Assembly: GCA_963924555.1 (NCBI GenBank)
Contig: OZ004597.1
Location: forward strand, 4,420,404 to 4,484,403
DNA: 64,000 nt
From: Crambe crambe
Lineage: Eukaryota; Porifera; Demospongiae; Poecilosclerida; Crambeidae
Direction of reading: 5' to 3'
How positions within the stretch are numbered: the stretch's first letter is position 1; each line of letters starts with the position of its first letter. This document shows positions 38,214 through 47,978 of the stretch, piece after piece. A program made the position numbers and the translations under genes. The notes beneath the pieces were generated by a model that searched no databases, had not been told where the DNA came from, and was given only the letters and a program-made list of their open reading frames with translations.

Positions 38214-39305
38214 TCACACCTTTTCACTATTCTGTCTGCCCTCAATACTATAGTATCGATATCGGTTTTTTCTGCCATCTGGCCTTCGTTTACCAGTAAA
38301 TCTCATTATAATTGACTGTTGCGATTCACTATCAGTGGGTTTGACCTTGTTCCCTTTGACACCACAACACTTCTGAGCTTGTTTATTCCTTGTAACAGGA
38401 CTGCCATCTGCTCTTTTTCCTGCGCTCTTCCCTGGATTAGACTTTGATTTTGGAAGTGTTCGGTTGCGCCTGCTGCTTTGAATGCCACCAAACTTCACTT
38501 GTTGCTCTTTCTGAAGTGTTTGTTCATTTTTGGATTTAAAAACCCTAAGGTATCTTCCATCCAATTTTATTTTCTTGTTTTGTTTCAATGCAAACATGAC
38601 ACCACACCTATCATTGAATAGTATAAATCCAAATCCTTTTCCAATGCCAGTTTTTGTATCTCTGACTATTCTCACAGATTCAATAGCACCACAGTCACTA
38701 AAAGTGGTTCTCAACTGCTCTTCATCTGCAGAAAAAGGCAAATTGCCAACAAAAACTGATCTGTGTTTATCCTGTAATGTTGTGGTTTTTCCTACCAAAT
38801 CCACTCTCAGATGCCTTCCTTGAAAAATGGTTCCATTAAGAACCAGAGAACTTTCAGCATCACTCACAGAGGTAAAAATCACATAAGCATTAAAGGTACT
38901 GCCTTCTACTAATTGTCTGTGAGTTACTTTAGCTAATTTTGATGGCATATTACCTGATGCAACTCTAACTGACCGTAAACGAATACTTTGAATTTGTCCG
39001 TAGGCCTTAAATAATCGTCTTACATGCTTTTTTGAGCAAGAAGCTGGGATATTGCCAACAAATACTGTTCTATCACTTCTAATATCATTCTCATACAATC
39101 TGCTGCTGGGGATAAATTTAGTCCTCTGACCATGACCACGTGTACGTGTTGGCGAGTTCATCTCAGAATCTTTCGAGACAGTAGCTAGTTCCTGACGGGA
39201 TTCTACATAATTTTCTACCTTCAGGCGTCCTTTGTCCTCATGTATGGATTGGGAGATGGCTTTAAAGCGAGGAACGACAGGAGGAAATGCTTGGAAAACA
39301 GCCAT
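38214..39305 (-). CDS. RBM34: RBM34-like two-RRM nucleolar RNA-binding protein
   Basis: This is an intronless 363-aa protein. Two RNA-recognition motifs occupy about residues 79-170 and 182-258. RRM1 starts TVFVGNIP and has the long insert typical of RBM34/Nop12. RRM2 has RNP2 VFVGNL (184-189) and RNP1 GKGFGFILF (222-230). The C-terminal 100 residues are Lys/Arg/Ser-rich and of low complexity, consistent with nucleolar targeting. RBM34 relatives act in ribosome biogenesis; that role here is inferred. The start is the first in-frame ATG. The gene is in tandem with CDK5RAP1 (263 bp between RBM34 stop and CDK5RAP1 start) and divergent from the kinase gene (281 bp between ATGs). The lack of introns contrasts with most neighbours. 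Confidence 0.9.
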   Translation of the reverse strand: MAVFQAFPPVVPRFKAISQSIHEDKGRLKVENYVESRQELATVSKDSEMNSPTRTRGHGQRTKFIPSSRLYENDIRSDRTVFVGNIPASCSKKHVRRLFKAYGQIQSIRLRSVRVASGNMPSKLAKVTHRQLVEGSTFNAYVIFTSVSDAESSLVLNGTIFQGRHLRVDLVGKTTTLQDKHRSVFVGNLPFSADEEQLRTTFSDCGAIESVRIVRDTKTGIGKGFGFILFNDRCGVMFALKQNKKIKLDGRYLRVFKSKNEQTLQKEQQVKFGGIQSSRRNRTLPKSKSNPGKSAGKRADGSPVTRNKQAQKCCGVKGNKVKPTDSESQQSIIMRFTGKRRPDGRKNRYRYYSIEGRQNSEKV

Positions 39306-39586
39306 CTTTTGGCGGGGTCAGAGGTCGATCGATTATATTCAACCCTTTTCCAATCGCAAGAGCTACCTTAAGTGACGTAGTTTGCTGGGGCGTGGTGATA
39401 CAAGAGCTTATAAGGGTGCCATAGATATTATGATCTATAAGTAAGTGTACAGAGACTGGTGCCTGCTTAATAAAGTTGCAAAAAGAAGATCCTGCAAGCT
39501 CATGAAAATGGTGTGTTCTTTAATAGACTTAGCTAGTATACTTCATTGTTGACATTACAGTGAGTCTATAATTATTTGGATGAAGC
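39306..39586. promoter_or_regulatory. Divergent intergenic interval RBM34 / PH-kinase
   Basis: This is 281 bp between two divergent start codons. It contains an inverted CCAAT (CCAAT at about 39350) and a CRE-like TGACGTAG near 39373. No other gene is seen. A shared promoter is inferred from position. Confidence 0.4.
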
Positions 39587-42500
39587 ATGGGGCCAAAGGA
39601 GTACGTGATGATTAGCCTTCCTGTGCATGATTTTAAAATGTACTAACTAGATAACTGAACCACTTGGTTATACTTGGGTTCAGTATCAAAGCATCCACAA
39701 GTTGTATTATTTCTTAATTTATTAGAGCACAAGAAACAGAAAGACTAAAACTGGGTATATTAATATGCTAAAGAAGAGGAACTGGAAACAGTATAGATTC
39801 CAAGTGACTGCAATGTACCTCTTATATTTCAAAACTGATGATGTAAGTTCAGCAATCTTCCCCCCCCCCCCCCCCCCCCCAACAAGAAAACAAAATCAGG
39901 AGGGGGGAGTTAAGTGACTAAGTGTTAGTTCAGGGGGACACCCCCTTGCCCCCACCTTTAAAAAAATGGTTGCATTGAAATCAATTTGTAAGCATTTGTC
40001 TATATAAGAACTGTAATCGGAAATTTGCAACTGATATTGTCATTGTATATCCAAGAATGAAGCAACAATAACAAAACAACCAAACAGACAAACAAACAAA
40101 AAAACCCAAACAACTATGTTTGGTACACACAATTCATAGTTTCTTCAGACTGATGAAGGTGTATTGATTGAGGATGTTCTACATTATGTTCATGGAGGTC
40201 AAAACATGATTCATATACACTCACTTGCTCAGTTATTATTATCATTTTGGCCAATAATTACCTATAGACGCATAAACCAGATGGCCAGATTCTTCTGAGC
40301 AGTATCACTAGTTTGGAAACAGAGATCACAAAAAATTCTACTTACCCTCTTCAAGTTCACTTTAAAGGAAAAGCTGAACAAGGCTCAGGATCTCCTTGGG
40401 TATTGGACCTCACCTCTAATGTAAGAACTGCTGATAGTAAAATGCCATACAGATGAAATTGAATCACTGTGCATGGTATTCTTTTTATTACCTCATATTA
40501 TGCATGTCTGTGGACAAAAAATTAATATTGTACTTTTCCACTGTATGGACTTGTTGCCTCTGGTTAAAACAATAGCTGTGAATTCAAGCTTTAGCAGACT
40601 ACCTAATTTTGTTCCTATGCCCATTTGTGCACGAACAAGATATGAAATCTTTTTATTTATTTGTTTTGTTGTTCAAAATTAAGATCAATGAAGTAAGCCT
40701 ACATACTAATCATAAAAAAATTATTGCCGGGCATGTACAATTTTGCAGAGTCAAAGTGGAATGATTCTTATCAGCAGAACCTTTCCAGCAAGTTAGTGTG
40801 AACTCTTCCGGGAATGAGTGGCTAGAAAATTTCTAGAACATTAGAGAGCAATTAAAATACTGGTTCACATGCTAGCTGCTATAGCAAGAAGATATTTGCT
40901 ATATGCATAAAGAAGAAGAAAAAAACCTTCATCAGCCCCATAATCTGTAAAGCCTGGGCATAGGGACTTAACTGTAGTAGCTTTAGGCTTATCAGTGATG
41001 GTTTTGATCATCCAGAGGGAAGCCCCAAAATGAACATAGTTGGGCATAGCAAAATAAATTTCAGCCACTGCTCAAGAATTCTGGGCAGAACCCTGCATGC
41101 TCATTCAGCATTTTGTGCATATGGGTTGGCAAGTGTGTATAATGAGTGGTGGCCAAAATAGCCAAGTGGTGGCCAAAATGGCCACTGTCGACCAGTGTGG
41201 GCAGAACCCTGAGCATACCTTATTAGTACAACTATCACCATCTCTTGGTCTATAACATGATAGGATGAACGAATAGATTGGATGGAGGCCATCAAACCAG
41301 GAGCTAGTGCTAGTCTGCAGAGGTTCAGTAAATCAGGGTCCCTCCACCGGATGCCACCTAATTCACAGGACTTGCATTCAGCATATGATCCCTATTCAGT
41401 GGAAAACCAGTATGTTAGTAATGGGACCCATGGACGGCATGATTCTGCTAGTTCATTGAAAAGCCTGCCATCACCACTTTCTCATGCTGAAAACTACATC
41501 GAACCAGTGTCTTCTGGTGGATGGAGCTATGGCTCACAAAGTGAATGTATCGGTGGATCACCTCCTGTGAAGTCACCCCAGAATCTCGCTCAATCTGTGG
41601 ACAGCAGACTCACCTCATTCAAGCAAAGGAGCAGTGATACTACTGCTAAATCAAATACTTCCAAAAGAGTAACATATTCCCACAATCCACGAGAACAATT
41701 GACTGTATTATCACGGTCAAACACTGAAAGAAGAAGTAAGAGTCCAGAGCACCTGTATGAAATGGACACTACAAATATGACTAGGATTGTAAAACAGACC
41801 AAACCTCCACTTCCTGATCGTAATCCTACTCCACCCAAACCCAAACCAAGAAAACCAAAGGGTCCTCCTAAGGGACTATATAACAAAAGTCCTGACTCCA
41901 GTATTGCTTCGCCTAATGAATTGGAATCTCGCTATACTGCTTTGTGTCAAATTGATGGGGCCAACAAGGAACCAGATTATGACATTCCAATTGTTCAATC
42001 TCTTTCATCAAGGGAGCAGTCTAAAGTATCGATTGACATAGATGAGCCAAGACCTGATCAAACTAATAAACCAAAAGTTACACCAAGGAAAAAGGCTCCT
42101 CACTCGCCGAAGAAACTAGAAGAACCAGAATACCTAGAATTGACAGACCAGGCTAAACCAAGAGCAGCTGAAAATGTTTCTGGTGATCTTAGTAAACTAC
42201 AAAATTTCTCTCCTGACCAGATAGACATGCTCACTAAAATGTTGCAACAGATTCAAAGTGGTGGAATGCAACAGCCTGTTGTTAAAGAAGTGAAATCAGC
42301 TGATGACGTATCAGGGCAAGGTATGAACAGCAGGGAAGATGTAGCTGACACTTCGACTATTCATACAACAGACGCTACTCAACTTAAGAGGAAATTTGGT
42401 GAGTTTTAAGTTGCACTGTGTGGATCGGTGCATGCACTATATATATGATTCCAATATTGTATTTATTGTAGAGAGTATGATCATTTCGACACCAACATTG

Positions 42501-45500
42501 AGATCAGGGAAAATGTACGTAAGACACAAAATTTGAAGACTCTATGTAAGATTTTAAATGGAGGGGGGAGGGAAGTCTCGGGCTAAACCATACAGCCTGT
42601 GTGTGCATAAAGGGTGCTGAGTAATTTGTATGAAGAAATGGGAAACTATCATAACTCCTACGTAGCTGACTTGAAATGTTATCAGCAACAGCAAGGAAGG
42701 ACTTGGACTAATTATGTAAAAGTCAACTTCATCATCCCTTAATTATGTAGATGTTTATATAGATGTGTGTATAGTGTAAGCATAGAAATGCAGGGCTAGG
42801 ACTAGCTAGAGTTCCTAACTGAGTTAGGACTAGGGCTGGGGCTAGGGGGCTAGGGTTAGAGTTAGGACTAGGGTTAGAGTTGGGACTAGGGCTAGGGCTA
42901 GGACTAGGGCCTCCATAGTGAGCATGTAATTAGAAGGATGGCTGATAATTCTGTTGATATTGACAATCTTGATTAGATTTGTCTGTTTAGATTGGTAACA
43001 GAAGAGGATGATATTGAAGGCTATGAGTCACGACCTGCCTGGGCTAAAGCTGTTGGTTTACAACAACAGTCTGCTGTGCACCACCAACAAGATGGTGATC
43101 CTGACACACTCTTTGACTTGCAGGAGGATGCGTTGTATATACCTTGCTCAAGGCTAACAGACTTCACTGAAATTGGAGAAGGTATTTCATGTTTATATCT
43201 CCTGAAAGTAGTATGTATGAACATGTAAGTGTGTGTACCTCTCCTTGCTGTATGCAACAACCAAAACAGTGTGTGCCCATTCTGGGGGTAGAATGCAAAG
43301 TTTGCAGTTATAGGATGTTATATATATAGCTGGGCTCATACTTATTAGAAATATTAATGGAGTCAAGGCTCTCAAAAAAGCTATCTGGCTACTGATAACT
43401 TCATGGCTTACCTAGCAGCTGATTACTTGATTATCGTGGTTGCTTTTAGTAAAAGGAGGAATAGCTGAGTAGAAACAGGTTTATTTCTGTACTGTGTTGT
43501 TGCATTGTGACAACAACATCTTTAGTATGCTTCCCATCAAGATTGACAGTTAAACCTAGAGTATGTAATCTTGTTCAGTTTCGACTGCAAGCACCCACTA
43601 AACACATGTACAACCATGTGTTTCAAGCTCTGCTAATATTATGGTAAAGTAAAGTTGGACTATCATATTATGTGTGCGTTGAATTTAGGCCAGTTTGGGA
43701 AAGTGTTTCAAGCTGTGATGCGAAGAGGTGCAGACAATATCACTGTAGCTGTTAAAACTGCTAAGAAAAGCACCTCAGCTAAAGAACAAAAGGAATTTTG
43801 TCAAGAAATGAACATCATGGCTCAAATGATGCACCCAAACATTGTCCGGTTATATGGAATCGTCAGAGATGGTTAGTTTATGCATCTCTAGATTGTAGGT
43901 TTATAGCAAGGGAAGCAACTCCTGATGCAGTGTGTACATGATTAAATAGCTATGGAAAGCACTCTAGATATACTATTTCAACTGGCAAGAAAATAATTAG
44001 CAAACAATTTTATTTTCATAGATGTTTCTGCTCCCTGGATCGTTTTGGAATACTTAAAATATGGTGACCTAAAACATTTCCTAATTGTAAGTCATAATCT
44101 TTAGCAGCAAAAGTTAGAAACTGCTCCAGACCATGGAGTGTTTAGAAACCCTTGACCACTGTTGCTGGACTTGGGCTGCTACCCCACGGCCCTCAGATTT
44201 TTAAAACACTGTAGATCCCATTGGTCAAGGTAACAATAGGAATCCAGAAGTTTTGCCAATGCCCTGAGAGCAAGCAAGGGCTACTGAACCTACCCTTCAT
44301 TCTAAAGAATGGATGATGCAACTTCTAAATGGTGACAGAGCATGTGCATGTAACCTTTGACCACTTTTTAGATGCTTTGTTCCAAAGAGGTGCTTATGAT
44401 ATTGACTGGACATGATGTCCCCACAGGTAGCACAGGAGTTATCTGGGTATAGAGGTTGCACTATAATTATAGTACTGATTTCCTTCATTCTGCAGAAACA
44501 CCAGCGACCTATAGAAAAGCTAGTAAAGTATATGATTGATGTCTCAATGGGGATGCATTATCTTTCAGAGAGAGGACTTGTGCATAGAGTAAGTATGTAT
44601 TCAAGTTTGAAAATATTAACAACATATTATTAAAATGGATATCTAACCATATTCAATCTACCTAGTTAATTAGCTGACTCCTATTTCCTTGTTCAGCTAA
44701 ATATACATAGTATCTTTGGGTGTATCAAGTCACTTATTTTTAATGCATGTGGGTTGCTATTATGTAACATGGTGATAGTTCATATTCCAAACTCTCTAGG
44801 ATCTTGCTGCTCGTAATGTATTGATTGGAGAAGATGAGACATGTAAAGTTTCTGATTTTGGTCTGCTACGAGAACTCCCAAAAGACGACTCTATATATCA
44901 TATGCAGACCAATGTGCCTTGCCCAGTGCGATGGATGCCACCTGAAAGTATATCCGACAGATTGTTTTCTCCTGCTTCAGATGTGTGGAGCTTTGGGATT
45001 CTTCAGTGGGAGATGTTTTACCCCTCAAAAACACCATATGAAAATCTGGGGAATTTGGAAGTAGCAATGAAAGTGAGTACTAGTTATACTCATCTCACTG
45101 TTTGAGGGGTTTAAGATATGCACAATGAAGTATGACTACGTTCTCAGTTCAGTTTAGCAATTGTGATTGCCCCTTTGCAAGTGTGTCAGCTATGGAGAGA
45201 GACAAACTCTGCCAAAATATATATCCTCAAAAAATTACTTATTACTGTCATGGCATAAGACCTAAGTAATGATGTCTAAAATGTGAATCACTTAAGTTGG
45301 TAAGGGTCATCAACATTGCTGGCACTCGTATTAGACTTCAAGCTACATAACTAAAATCACATTGGACTGTTTGTGTTTTCTGACCAATGGCTGATAAGTA
45401 TACGGCTTTTCTAGAGACCGTATCTCTTTCTTGGCCATCACTCGGCTAGTAAGAGGCCTTTTCTTCTATGTAGTTGAAAATATGACATGTCAGTGCACAA

Positions 45501-45860
45501 ATTAACATATTATGGGTCAATGGTGACAACCCTTACCAAACTAATATACTATTTAAAAAGTTTAAAAGGTACCTGCTTTGACTGAGCAGATTCAGAATAA
45601 TCTAGCTCCTCCTATGAGAAGTTCAACAGGTGCTATTACTATTTGTAGCTGTGCATGAAAAATTTGTATCATGCATTGTTGTGCTTCCCTCCCAAAATGC
45701 ACAGGTTATGAAAGGTTATCGACTAGAAGTTCCTCCTGCTTGCCCTCCTGTGGTTGTTAGAATCATGAAAGCATGTTGGCATAAAAATCCTGACAAGAGG
45801 CCAAGTTTTCTCCTCATTGCAACTCTTCTAAGTCAAGTTGCTTTTGAACATCAGCAGTAA
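39587..45860 (+). CDS. PH-domain cytoplasmic tyrosine kinase with adaptor-like docking region
   Basis: The model is 806 aa in 11 exons: 39587-39600, 39728-39842, 40268-40420, 41264-42398, 42472-42514, 42991-43181, 43689-43871, 44022-44086, 44496-44588, 44800-45072, 45705-45860 (2421 nt, in frame). A PH domain covers about residues 12-105 (TGYINMLKKRNWKQYRF to DERIDWMEAI). A long region (106-540) is Ser/Pro-rich, with a Lys/Pro stretch at 275-296 (PPKPKPRKPKGPP) and tyrosine motifs YIEP (Y172) and YDIP (Y333) plus an acidic EYLEL. The kinase domain runs from about 543 to the end: GEGQFGKV (549-556), K573, alpha-C E590, HRDLAARN (D665), DFG (D683), activation-loop Y697, and RWMPPES. All catalytic residues are present. 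HRDLAARN marks a tyrosine kinase. No SH2, SH3, SAM or transmembrane segment is visible, so it fits neither Tec nor other standard PH-kinases. The 14-nt first coding exon is the weakest call. Confidence 0.85.
39860..39880. repeat. Poly(C) run
   Basis: About 21 C residues in kinase intron 2, followed by GGGGGG and CCCCC blocks (39900-39955) that could pair with it. Confidence 0.9.
42824..42911. repeat. Telomere-like degenerate TTAGGG/CTAGGG array
   Basis: About 14 imperfect hexamers (CTAGGG, TTAGAG, TTAGGA, CTAGGG) run head to tail in a kinase intron. They resemble a decayed TTAGGG array. Confidence 0.7.
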
Positions 45861-46130: not shown

Positions 46131-47978
46131 ATGGATCACATTGATAGAAAATATTTGAGTCCTTTCTCTGGTTCGAATTCCAGTATCAAGAGAAAAATAA
46201 GTCAACTGACAAGAAAAGAAAAGCATGAATTTATCAACAAGTATGGTCCACTTAGTCCAACAAAAGGTATAAGTAGTGAATGTCAGTCTAATGCAAAAGG
46301 CAGCTCAATCATAAAATATTTCATATTGGATCCAACTAGTAAACAAGCTCATTATTGGTTATTTACAGTGGCAGTAGCTGCAATATATTTTTGCTGGAGT
46401 GTTAGTCTCAGAGTGGCCTATGGTACTATCCAGGAACTTTGGTGGCTGTGGATGATATTTGACACTATATTCTACAGTGTGTACTTTGCAGATCTCTTCA
46501 TCCAGATGCGCACAAGTTACCTGCATGATGGCATTTTAGAACAAGATCTAATCAAACTCAAACTTTTCTACATGCAGTCCATATATTTCAAGATTGATAT
46601 CTTGAGTTTGCTACCTTTGAACTTGGTATATGGTTCTATTTTCTGGACAACTTCTCCTCCAGTGTTACATTGCACAAAATTGGTGAAGATTTATCGTGTA
46701 TGGCAATTCTATATCCGTTCAGAAAGCAGATCTCACTGTCCCAATATGTGCAGAGTACTCTTCCTTGTGCATAACTTGTTAATGATTATTCATTGGAACG
46801 CTTGTTGGTACTACCTCCTGAGTAACTGGATAGGTATGGGAAGTGATTCATGGGTTTATCCTGCCTGGAACAGTACGTATAATAGAGAGTGGGGGTACAT
46901 CTCTAGACAATATCTCTATTCGTTCTACTGGTCAACATTAACACTTACAACAATTGGTGAACTGCCAGAACCAAGATCAAACTTGGAATATCTATTCATG
47001 ACTTTGGAGTACCTGATTGGTATTTTAATGTTTGCTACAGTAGTTGGAAATATTGGAAGCATTATTGAAAATACACAAAAGAATAGGACCAAATTTCAAA
47101 CCAAAATGGATAATATTAAGAAGTATATGAAAGCGAATAAAATTTCTGATGACCTCCAAGAAAGGGTTATCAAATGGTTTGACTACCAATGGAGTTATGG
47201 GAATTCAGTGGAGGAACATGTGCTAGATAATTTGCCAGACAAGCTCAAAGCGGAAATAGGAATGCATGTGTACTTTAAAACACTCAAAAAAGTCGATTTC
47301 TTTGAAGAGTGTGAGCAAGGTTTGCTTTGGGAAATAGTGCTTAGACTGAGAACTCAAGTGTATTCACCAGGAGAGTACGTCTGCAAGAAAGGTGATGTGG
47401 GAAGGGAAATGTACATAGTGAATAGTGGCAAGTTAGAAGTATTGGTGGAAGAGGATGGCATGGTATTAAAACAACTGACACATGGAGAGTATTTTGGCGA
47501 AATCAGCGTCCTCAATCTGGGAATGGGTAAAAGTCACAGAAGACGCACTGCTTTCGTACGATCACTCGGTTACACATCCCTTTTATGCCTCACTCAAGCT
47601 AATCTTTTTGAAGTCTTGAAAGATTATCCTAATGCCAAGCAAAAGTTAATGGAGAAGAGCAGGAATGAGTTACAAAATGATGCTAAGTATAACCAAGACG
47701 AAGTATTAAAAGAAACCACCATACCCACCATACTCACAGAAGATGAATGTGATTCAATACCTGACAGCACTGACCTGTTGAACAGACCCCCATTAGAAGT
47801 AACCTCTATGGCTGACCAAGTTACTAATCTTAGTGAGAGGTTACTCAAGATTGAAGATCTGATACACACAGTCTTAGCTGAAGTACAGAAAAATTCTACT
47901 TCAAAATCCACTATAGCTGGATCTAGTACTCTTTTTGAAATCAAGGAACGTGTACGAAAGTTATCTTCACAGATGTAA
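46131..47978 (+). CDS. Cyclic-nucleotide-gated cation channel subunit (CNGA type)
   Basis: This is an intronless 615-aa plasma-membrane channel opened by cGMP or cAMP. S1 lies near residues 76-96, S4 is in the KLVKIYRVWQF stretch, and the pore has STLTLTTIGELPEP with the selectivity glutamate near E277, which is the CNGA signature and not the GYG of potassium channels. The C-linker contains RVIKWFDYQWSYG. The cyclic-nucleotide-binding domain has YSPGEYVCKKGDVGREMYI and the phosphate-binding cassette YFGEIS followed by RRTA (about 470-474). A coiled coil near 560-600 resembles the leucine-zipper segment that sets CNGA stoichiometry. The open frame extends upstream to a TTG at 46065, but 46131 is the first ATG, in a good context (AAAATGG). 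The stop codon overlaps an AATAAA signal. Ligand preference cannot be read from the sequence. Confidence 0.92.
   Translation: MDHIDRKYLSPFSGSNSSIKRKISQLTRKEKHEFINKYGPLSPTKGISSECQSNAKGSSIIKYFILDPTSKQAHYWLFTVAVAAIYFCWSVSLRVAYGTIQELWWLWMIFDTIFYSVYFADLFIQMRTSYLHDGILEQDLIKLKLFYMQSIYFKIDILSLLPLNLVYGSIFWTTSPPVLHCTKLVKIYRVWQFYIRSESRSHCPNMCRVLFLVHNLLMIIHWNACWYYLLSNWIGMGSDSWVYPAWNSTYNREWGYISRQYLYSFYWSTLTLTTIGELPEPRSNLEYLFMTLEYLIGILMFATVVGNIGSIIENTQKNRTKFQTKMDNIKKYMKANKISDDLQERVIKWFDYQWSYGNSVEEHVLDNLPDKLKAEIGMHVYFKTLKKVDFFEECEQGLLWEIVLRLRTQVYSPGEYVCKKGDVGREMYIVNSGKLEVLVEEDGMVLKQLTHGEYFGEISVLNLGMGKSHRRRTAFVRSLGYTSLLCLTQANLFEVLKDYPNAKQKLMEKSRNELQNDAKYNQDEVLKETTIPTILTEDECDSIPDSTDLLNRPPLEVTSMADQVTNLSERLLKIEDLIHTVLAEVQKNSTSKSTIAGSSTLFEIKERVRKLSSQM

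Follow-up and report, generated by a model that had tools for sequence, protein, structure and literature searches.

In a 64,000-nucleotide stretch of the genome of the sponge Crambe crambe (the window; contig OZ004597.1, here C20, positions 4420404-4484403, in a genome of 143 Mb and 119 contigs), we found a gene whose predicted product joins a PH domain, a long linker, and a tyrosine kinase (TK) domain, in that order. Gene model and domain searches confirmed this product, hereafter that of the window gene, as a cytoplasmic-type tyrosine kinase without SH2 or SH3 domains. Five PH–linker–TK genes were found in the genome, and four of them, the window gene being the exception, appear to carry a second kinase domain upstream of the PH domain. 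The explanation that we favor, and consider probable though well short of secure, is that the window gene encodes a localized, self-docking kinase with dual-kinase relatives, and that the upstream kinase was lost from it. The architecture, the intact TK motifs, and the family membership are read from sequence.

Gene model and domain architecture

Exons were read from splice sites and reading frame alone. The resulting model is one spliced frame of 11 exons (39580-45860, + strand) with GT..AG borders and the frame kept throughout. The complete single frame that the first-pass annotation had reported over the locus was therefore real, with intact borders, but its figure of 806 amino acids (aa) was not reproduced: the model gives 802 aa from the ATG at 39587, or, by arithmetic, 809 aa with the ATG at 39580 and a phase-0 acceptor before 39726. 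We prefer the 39580 version because its phase-0 entry into the PH domain agrees with the paralogs; 39587 is a possible start, and the first ~5-12 residues are unsure. The exons are as follows.

39580 (or 39587)-39600, + strand: exon 1, short N-terminus; donor GTACGT, phase-0 join to 39726
39726-39842 (acceptor alternative 39740), + strand: exon 2, first part of the PH domain (GYINMLKKRNWKQYRFQV...)
40268-40420, + strand: exon 3, middle of the PH domain
41264-42398, + strand: exon 4, C-terminal PH segment (DERIDWMEAIKPG) and most of the Ser/Pro/Tyr linker
42472-42514, + strand: exon 5, 43 nt, phase 1 to 2
42991-43181, + strand: exon 6, pre-kinase segment EDD..YES.RPAW.KA and first half of the Gly loop
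43689-43871, + strand: exon 7, TK N-lobe with Gly loop, VAVK lysine, and alpha-C Glu
44022-44086, + strand: exon 8, TK hinge (WIVLEYLKYGDLKHFLI)
44496-44588, + strand: exon 9, TK segment as far as the HR of HRD
44800-45072, + strand: exon 10, catalytic loop (DLAARN), DFG, activation-loop Tyr (SIYHM), and PPE
45705-45860, + strand: exon 11, end of the TK C-lobe and stop; the preceding intron is absent from the paralogs

A Pfam scan of the 802-aa product placed the PH domain (PF00169) at residues 15-101 (E 7e-10; 39.8 bits, cut-off 25.1), close to the 12-105 given earlier, and the TK domain (PK_Tyr) at residues 542-790 (E 3.4e-86). Between them, as had been described, lies a Ser/Pro-rich, low-complexity linker of ~430 aa. 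The full kinase domain annotated in the first pass was upheld with every motif checked intact: GEGQFG, VAVK, the alpha-C Glu, HRD, AARN, and DFG, with PPE where APE is expected. HRD.AARN, DFG, the TK Pfam match, and a position in the TK part of the kinase tree all place the protein in the tyrosine kinase group. The gene ends at the kinase domain, and the Pfam scan of the protein gave no SH2, SH3, BTK motif, FERM, FAT, SAM, CRIB, or receptor ectodomain.

We also looked for SH2 or SH3 exons hidden in the introns, in particular 40421-41263 and 42515-42990. Domain searches of the genome gave 145 SH2, 105 SH3, and 5 BTK-motif matches, none of them within C20:4459990-4466263. Ten intron frames of the gene, including the longest of each frame in introns 3 and 5, had no SH2 or SH3 match and yielded two weak matches to unrelated families (E 0.13 and 0.22). 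Hidden SH2 or SH3 exons were thus rejected at the level of these searches, and the absence of both domains stands on the protein scan and the searches at the locus alike; an exon-wise genome search for PH domains (97 matches) failed to recover the split PH domain of the window gene itself, and a split SH2 or SH3 could likewise escape.

A family of five genes and an upstream kinase

Besides the window gene, the family comprises three genes on contig C5 (L039, L040, and L041) and one on C17. The C5 loci were found through a whole-protein search of the genome, and their TK domains are 44-49% identical to that of the window gene over the domain. PH pieces were seen upstream of the TK by tblastn in two of these loci, and the third PH domain was seen on translation. 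Crossing by eye the positions of the 97 PH matches with those listed among the 160 TK matches yielded no kinase with a PH domain, as introns divide the PH domains of this genome; it was through the kinase that the paralogs came to light. Modeled products measured 1085 aa for L039, 1035 aa for L040, and 768 aa plus a 3ʹ part for L041, in which one exon is missing. Pfam reported two kinase stretches and a PH domain in all three (PH E 1.6e-7 in L041, above the cut-off, and 5e-4 in L039 and 9e-3 in L040, both below it).

The window gene belongs with these paralogs by its order of PH, linker, and TK, by the intron phases within PH and at linker entry, and by its TK clade. Introns common to the window gene, L039, L040, and L041 are the two in PH and the one leading into the linker exon (all phase 0), the one that follows this large exon (phase 1), and the one in the Gly loop (phase 1). 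Exon 4, which holds the PH end and the linker together, has the same layout in these three paralogs and in the C17 gene, and the phases after exons 7, 8, and 9 (1, 0, and 0) are the same in the window gene, L039, L040, and the C17 gene, whose linker-to-TK junctions lie outside its model. The phases of exon 5 recur in L040 (40 nt) and L041 (76 nt, borders picked to hold the frame), and in L039 this exon is fused to the next.

The additional kinase, here called K1, is a TKL-like domain encoded directly upstream of PH in L039, L040, L041, and the C17 gene; in the three C5 genes it occupies a single exon and measures ~345 aa. It has HRD, and DLG in place of DFG. Its best PDB relatives were 7t6f ("Tyrosine-protein kinase," 97 bits), which we take to be a JAK, together with TNNI3K, CTR1, IRAK4, and RIPK2; JAK1, JAK2, and TYK2 were among its best 60 PDB chains. 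Since K1-like kinases are abundant in the genome (at least 104 matched pieces), K1 itself is evidently ordinary; its predicted union with PH and TK is not. Such TKL kinases were seen on C12, C13, C9, C18, and C5, several in tandem-looking runs. When two K1 sequences were compared with the 64-kb window by tblastn, only the window gene's own TK matched at E 1e-3.

In L040, L041, and L039, the K1 exon has a possible phase-0 donor at its end, matching the phase-0 start of the PH exon, and reading of the sequence gave the same junction in the C17 gene and in a partial copy on C21. Among the K1-like loci read downstream (on C21, C13, and C17), two, C17 and C21, have a PH exon pair after K1. On C17, this pair is followed by a large Tyr-rich exon and the TK. 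The C21 locus (C21:3603500-3611499; L061, L063) is a partial near-copy of the beginning of the C17 gene (K1 and PH). The 8 kb read there contains neither a TK match nor a large linker frame, and the locus may have arisen by recent partial duplication; on C13 (L062), no PH-like match followed K1.

The first-pass annotation had proposed a simple fusion of adaptor and kinase. This needed revision: four paralogs carry the extra TKL-like kinase, joined in frame by the gene models, which gives the family a dual-kinase look, with the window gene as an apparently reduced member. Joint duplication of two adjacent genes could mimic a K1-PH fusion. Counter to this, four diverged copies spread over two contigs all allow the phase-0 junction, 40 nt separate the stop of the K1 frame from the PH exon in L040, and the first PH exon lacks an in-frame ATG in L039 and has one only after 21 codons in L040. 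A direct tandem repeat of ~52 bp was noted by eye between K1 and PH in L039 (4700-5150).

The TK domains of the relatives vary. L040 has ASGQFG in the Gly loop and keeps the remaining motifs, so that catalytic Asp residues are present in its K1 and its TK alike; L041 has HGD in place of HRD; L039 has HRK in place of HRD and DLE in place of DFG; and the C17 gene has AGGHFG, Asp for the alpha-C Glu, and NFG. The catalytic Asp is lost in the TK of two of the four. In L041, an M20-peptidase-like single-exon frame (2949-1762, - strand, C5 ~3.826 Mb) lies on the same strand in the intron expected to hold the missing TK exon.

Basic residues in the phosphoinositide slot of PH domains (WKRR in GRP1) matter for binding 3-phosphoinositides. 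At the position of GRP1 WKRRWF, the four family genes compared read WKQYRF, WKTYAF, WKMFTF, and WKEFVF, so that the canonical Arg slot is aromatic in four of four. Because this slot is replaced in these four genes while the Tec-type gene of the same genome has NFKKR, canonical binding of phosphatidylinositol 3,4,5-trisphosphate (PIP3) by these PH domains appears unlikely, and another target is probable.

The linker between PH and TK

The linker of the window gene contains the following elements.

41495-41506, + strand: YIEP (Y168)
41804-41866, + strand: Pro/Lys-rich SH3-ligand-like stretch (PPLPDRNPTPPKPKPRKPKGP); basic PxxP is enriched over shuffles across the whole linker
41978-41989, + strand: YDIP (Y329)
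42131-42142, + strand: YLEL (Y380); a similar EYLEL is seen in L040 by eye
42197-42253, + strand: short helical-looking motif LQNFSPDQIDMLTKMLQQI, lying in the region that gives the best ungapped linker match to each of the C5 paralogs

Six patterns were compared with 2000 shuffles per pattern in four linkers (window gene, L039, L040, and L041). As the patterns were picked after viewing the sequence and 24 tests were made, values near 0.002 are suggestive and not firm. In the window gene, basic SH3-type PxxP occurred 5 times against a shuffle mean of 0.9 (fraction of shuffles 0.002), in agreement with the Lys/Pro SH3-type stretch noted earlier, and an acidic residue no more than three places before Tyr occurred 11 times against 4.8 (0.0025). 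The YxxP docking motifs of the first-pass annotation, YIEP and YDIP, are present, but their number is at chance (2 against 1.18, fraction 0.33), and the same holds for Yxx[PLIVMN] (6 against 3.9, 0.17); Yx[NLI] (1 against 1.9, 0.88) and PxxP overall (6 against 3.6, 0.15) were not enriched either. L040 is enriched in Yxx[PLIVMN] (10 against 4.4, 0.001) and not in acid-before-Tyr (8 against 6.8), L039 shows PxxP at 6 against 2.1 (0.016) and no other enrichment, and L041, with just three Tyr, shows no enrichment of any pattern. The C17 linker is Tyr-rich by eye. Given the chance-level YxxP count and the linker of L041, docking is not a conserved quantity across the family, and the term "docking region" is partly supported for the window gene, by its acid-before-Tyr and basic PxxP features.

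Linkers barely align among paralogs (MAFFT), and ungapped matching was hence used to look for a shared motif. The segment around 400-420 of the window gene product was the top match to each C5 paralog in three of three comparisons, a result equaled by 1 of 200 shuffles for L040, 21 of 200 for L039, and 82 of 200 for L041. Between the paralogs themselves, this segment ranked second in L040-L039 and outside the top three in L040-L041 and L041-L039.

Of the competing explanations, the one that fares best is that the linker is a disordered spacer, its Tyr and Pro residues not docking sites and the protein an ordinary kinase. The chance-level YxxP and Yxx[PLIVMN] counts, the three Tyr of L041, and the poor alignment of the linkers all suit this explanation, which we regard as unlikely while granting it appreciable weight: acid-before-Tyr and basic PxxP are enriched in the window gene, Yxx[PLIVMN] in L040 (0.1% of shuffles), and a Tyr-rich linker is found in the C17 gene as well.

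Placement of the kinase domain

The last tree had 42 rows: the five PH-TKs, eleven human references, 22 TKs from the same genome (loci fetched with a single-exon domain, identical ones once), the genome's own Tec, and three K1s. Among the references, BTK was checked, three came from PDB matches, and the sequences of SRC, ABL1, FAK1, SYK, CSK, FER, and ACK1 were provisional. The five PH-TKs formed one clade (100/99) outside the Src-module clade. Within it, the window gene paired with the C17 TK (99/81) and the C5 genes formed the other branch (99/78); earlier trees, without C17, put the window gene beside the three C5 genes. Its branch is the shortest of the five (0.33). Since the window gene, which is without K1, is nested inside the TK tree of the family, parsimony suggests that K1 was present before it split off and was probably lost from it. 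A run of single-exon tyrosine kinases with HRDLATRN was seen on C16 (4.98-6.05 Mb), and the twelve used form one clade.

The PH-TK clade stood beside two Eph receptors (98/94 in the last tree, 86/95 and 92/94 in earlier ones), and in a PDB search with the window gene's TK, Eph receptors were the best single domains (204 bits; a two-domain EGFR chain totaled 318 bits, 159 each). Groupings of the PH-TKs with ACK1 (p 0.189) or FAK1 (p 0.148) were not rejected. An ACK-like look of the activation loop, judged by eye, had no support in the tree. Together, these results leave a small but real chance that the TK diverged from a FAK-family, ACK-family, or Eph kinase domain and was carried into a new context. 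Against such an origin, Pfam found no FERM, FAT, SAM, CRIB, or receptor ectodomain; unlike FAK, the window gene has no FERM before and no FAT after the kinase, and unlike ACK it has no SH3-CRIB after the kinase, where the gene ends. The placement itself involves few human references, seven of the eleven with provisional sequences, and long branches.

Neighboring genes and the single transcription unit

Two frames flank the window gene.

38214-39305, - strand: single-exon frame with two RRM matches (Pfam), presumably RBM34-like, start codon at 39305; head-to-head with the window gene, 274 bp apart
46131-47978, + strand: single-exon cyclic nucleotide-gated channel-type frame, Ion_trans and cNMP_binding (Pfam), 270 bp past the stop of the window gene

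These distances leave little room for missing exons on either side. The PH–linker–TK order recurs in four paralogs that agree in phase for the PH introns, the linker entry, and most introns of the TK, which speaks for the window gene being one predicted transcription unit. It is improbable that two genes or promoters are present instead, one for an adaptor of PH and linker (exons 1-4, with the exon 4 donor passed over and translation ending at 42407) and another for a kinase beginning at the Met of exon 5. A stop just past the exon 4 donor and an in-frame ATG in exon 5 would fit such a division, and they make short isoforms possible; however, PH, linker, and TK keep their order in five diverged genes, and a small exon 5 of phase 1 to 2 is found in the window gene and L040 (and in L041 with a fitted border).

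Elsewhere in the genome, three equal-scoring SH3 domains, each near SH2 exons, lie at 1.293, 1.307, and 1.320 Mb on C17 and look like a tandem triplicated adaptor-type gene.

Relation to the Tec family

An N-terminal PH domain and a C-terminal tyrosine kinase in one cytoplasmic protein are also found in the Tec family (BTK, ITK, and TEC), and PH-SH3-SH2-kinase and SH3-SH2-kinase are described as the most anciently conserved TK arrangements (PMC8662651). The window gene has no BTK zinc motif (PF00779), SH3, or SH2, its PH domain is without the basic slot, and its kinase is not part of the clade formed by BTK and the Tec of this genome. The latter is a separate gene (L050, C20 ~917-924 kb) with a PH exon bearing NFKKR (FKKR by eye), a BTK motif, SH3, SH2 (second half matched), and TK exons 43-71% identical to BTK. 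BTK and this gene clustered at 100/99 with the PH-TKs outside. Grouping the PH-TKs with both was rejected by the approximately unbiased (AU) test (p 0.0215), for a test group picked after the first tree; grouping them with BTK alone fell short of rejection (p 0.064). A Tec kinase stripped of its BTK motif, SH3, and SH2 is thus a very improbable origin for the window gene, since the genome already has a Tec gene and the tree rules against it, and the earlier view that the window gene is not a Tec kinase holds. The joint presence of PH and tyrosine kinase does not have to mean Tec.

Proposed mechanism

Returning to the localized, self-docking kinase that we favor, we infer PH-driven placement, linker phosphorylation, SH2/SH3 recruitment, and K1-TK coupling as follows. 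The PH domain would bring the kinase to a membrane or to a partner protein, probably by a route other than the canonical PIP3 pocket. The intact TK, once clustered, could autophosphorylate its activation loop (SIYHM) and then phosphorylate its linker tyrosines, either within the same chain or from one copy to another. Linker phosphotyrosines and basic PxxP stretches might gather SH2 and SH3 proteins; the many SH2 domains of the genome (145 matches) could read phosphotyrosine. In the dual-kinase relatives, K1 may act as an additional switch or partner of the TK, and K1 or the docking role may dominate where the TK has lost its catalytic Asp (two of four relatives).

Several points weigh against this explanation. 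The PH domains of four genes are without the canonical basic phosphoinositide slot, the YxxP count of the window gene is at chance, and the L041 linker, with its three Tyr, shows nothing enriched. The nested position of the window gene rests on short branches (99/81, 99/78). The PH-linked K1s do not resolve as one clade in the K1 tree, although one origin is not rejected (p 0.547), so two gains of K1 are possible. An extra intron interrupts the equivalent of exon 6 ahead of the Gly loop in the C5 genes, which are without the last TK intron of the window gene; the last intron of the C17 gene lies elsewhere. The exon 5 border of L041 was picked to keep the frame, exon 8 of L041 was not found, and L040 and L041 are tandem neighbors, so they are not independent copies. 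An in-frame ATG stands at the start of the first PH exon in C17 and C21 and at its codon 5 in L041, so a separate PH start is possible in these three. For relatives beyond this genome, a contig search gave nine bacterial kinases at 23-29% and viral contigs gave none.

A bolder form of the proposal, which we offer tentatively and hold to be somewhat less than probable, is that the family consists of single-chain dual kinases, ordered TKL kinase, PH, phosphotyrosine docking linker, and TK, with mutual regulation in cis, as an independent counterpart of the JAKs, and that the window gene has dropped its TKL kinase while retaining a TK that, alone among the five, is fully intact.

Comparison with known systems

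Tyrosine kinase signaling in animals and their relatives diversified largely by joining the kinase to targeting domains. Among the papers covered by the literature searches, which did not include the sponge and choanoflagellate kinome surveys (Srivastava 2010, Manning 2008, and Suga 2012), no title or abstract opening described a PH-TK without SH2 or a TKL-PH-TK. Src-Aque1 is a sponge-specific family with SH3-SH2-kinase (PMC8662651). Choanoflagellate tyrosine kinases such as HMTK1, with its PTB, likewise join a non-SH2 targeting domain to the TK, but the unusual partners named there are C2, FYVE, and PTB, not PH-linker or TKL-PH-TK (PMC3082566).

GAB/DOS docking proteins share with the window gene the arrangement of a PH domain ahead of a long region rich in Ser, Pro, and Tyr that contains SH3-ligand-like stretches; for the window gene, with its mixed motif enrichment, a docking function of this region is a prediction. 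Docking proteins in general are described as lacking intrinsic enzymatic activity (PMC2747914), whereas the window gene has a predicted kinase domain of its own with intact TK motifs. One chain would thus do the work usually divided between a kinase and a GAB/DOS-type docking protein. A kinase with its own docking tail, in a family whose other members seem to have an additional kinase from a different group, would represent a distinct way of coupling kinase and adaptor, and the five genes, with K1 present or absent and TK intact or degenerate, form a natural set for testing the role of each half.

The relatives of the window gene also recall the JAK kinases, as they seem to have two kinase domains per chain, with the TK sometimes degenerate. 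They differ in that scans of the window gene and of the three C5 models (for L041, short of the 3ʹ part) found neither FERM nor SH2, and in that K1 is TKL-like, with HRD and DLG. A PH domain and linker stand between the two kinases of these relatives, and the window gene itself has one kinase only.

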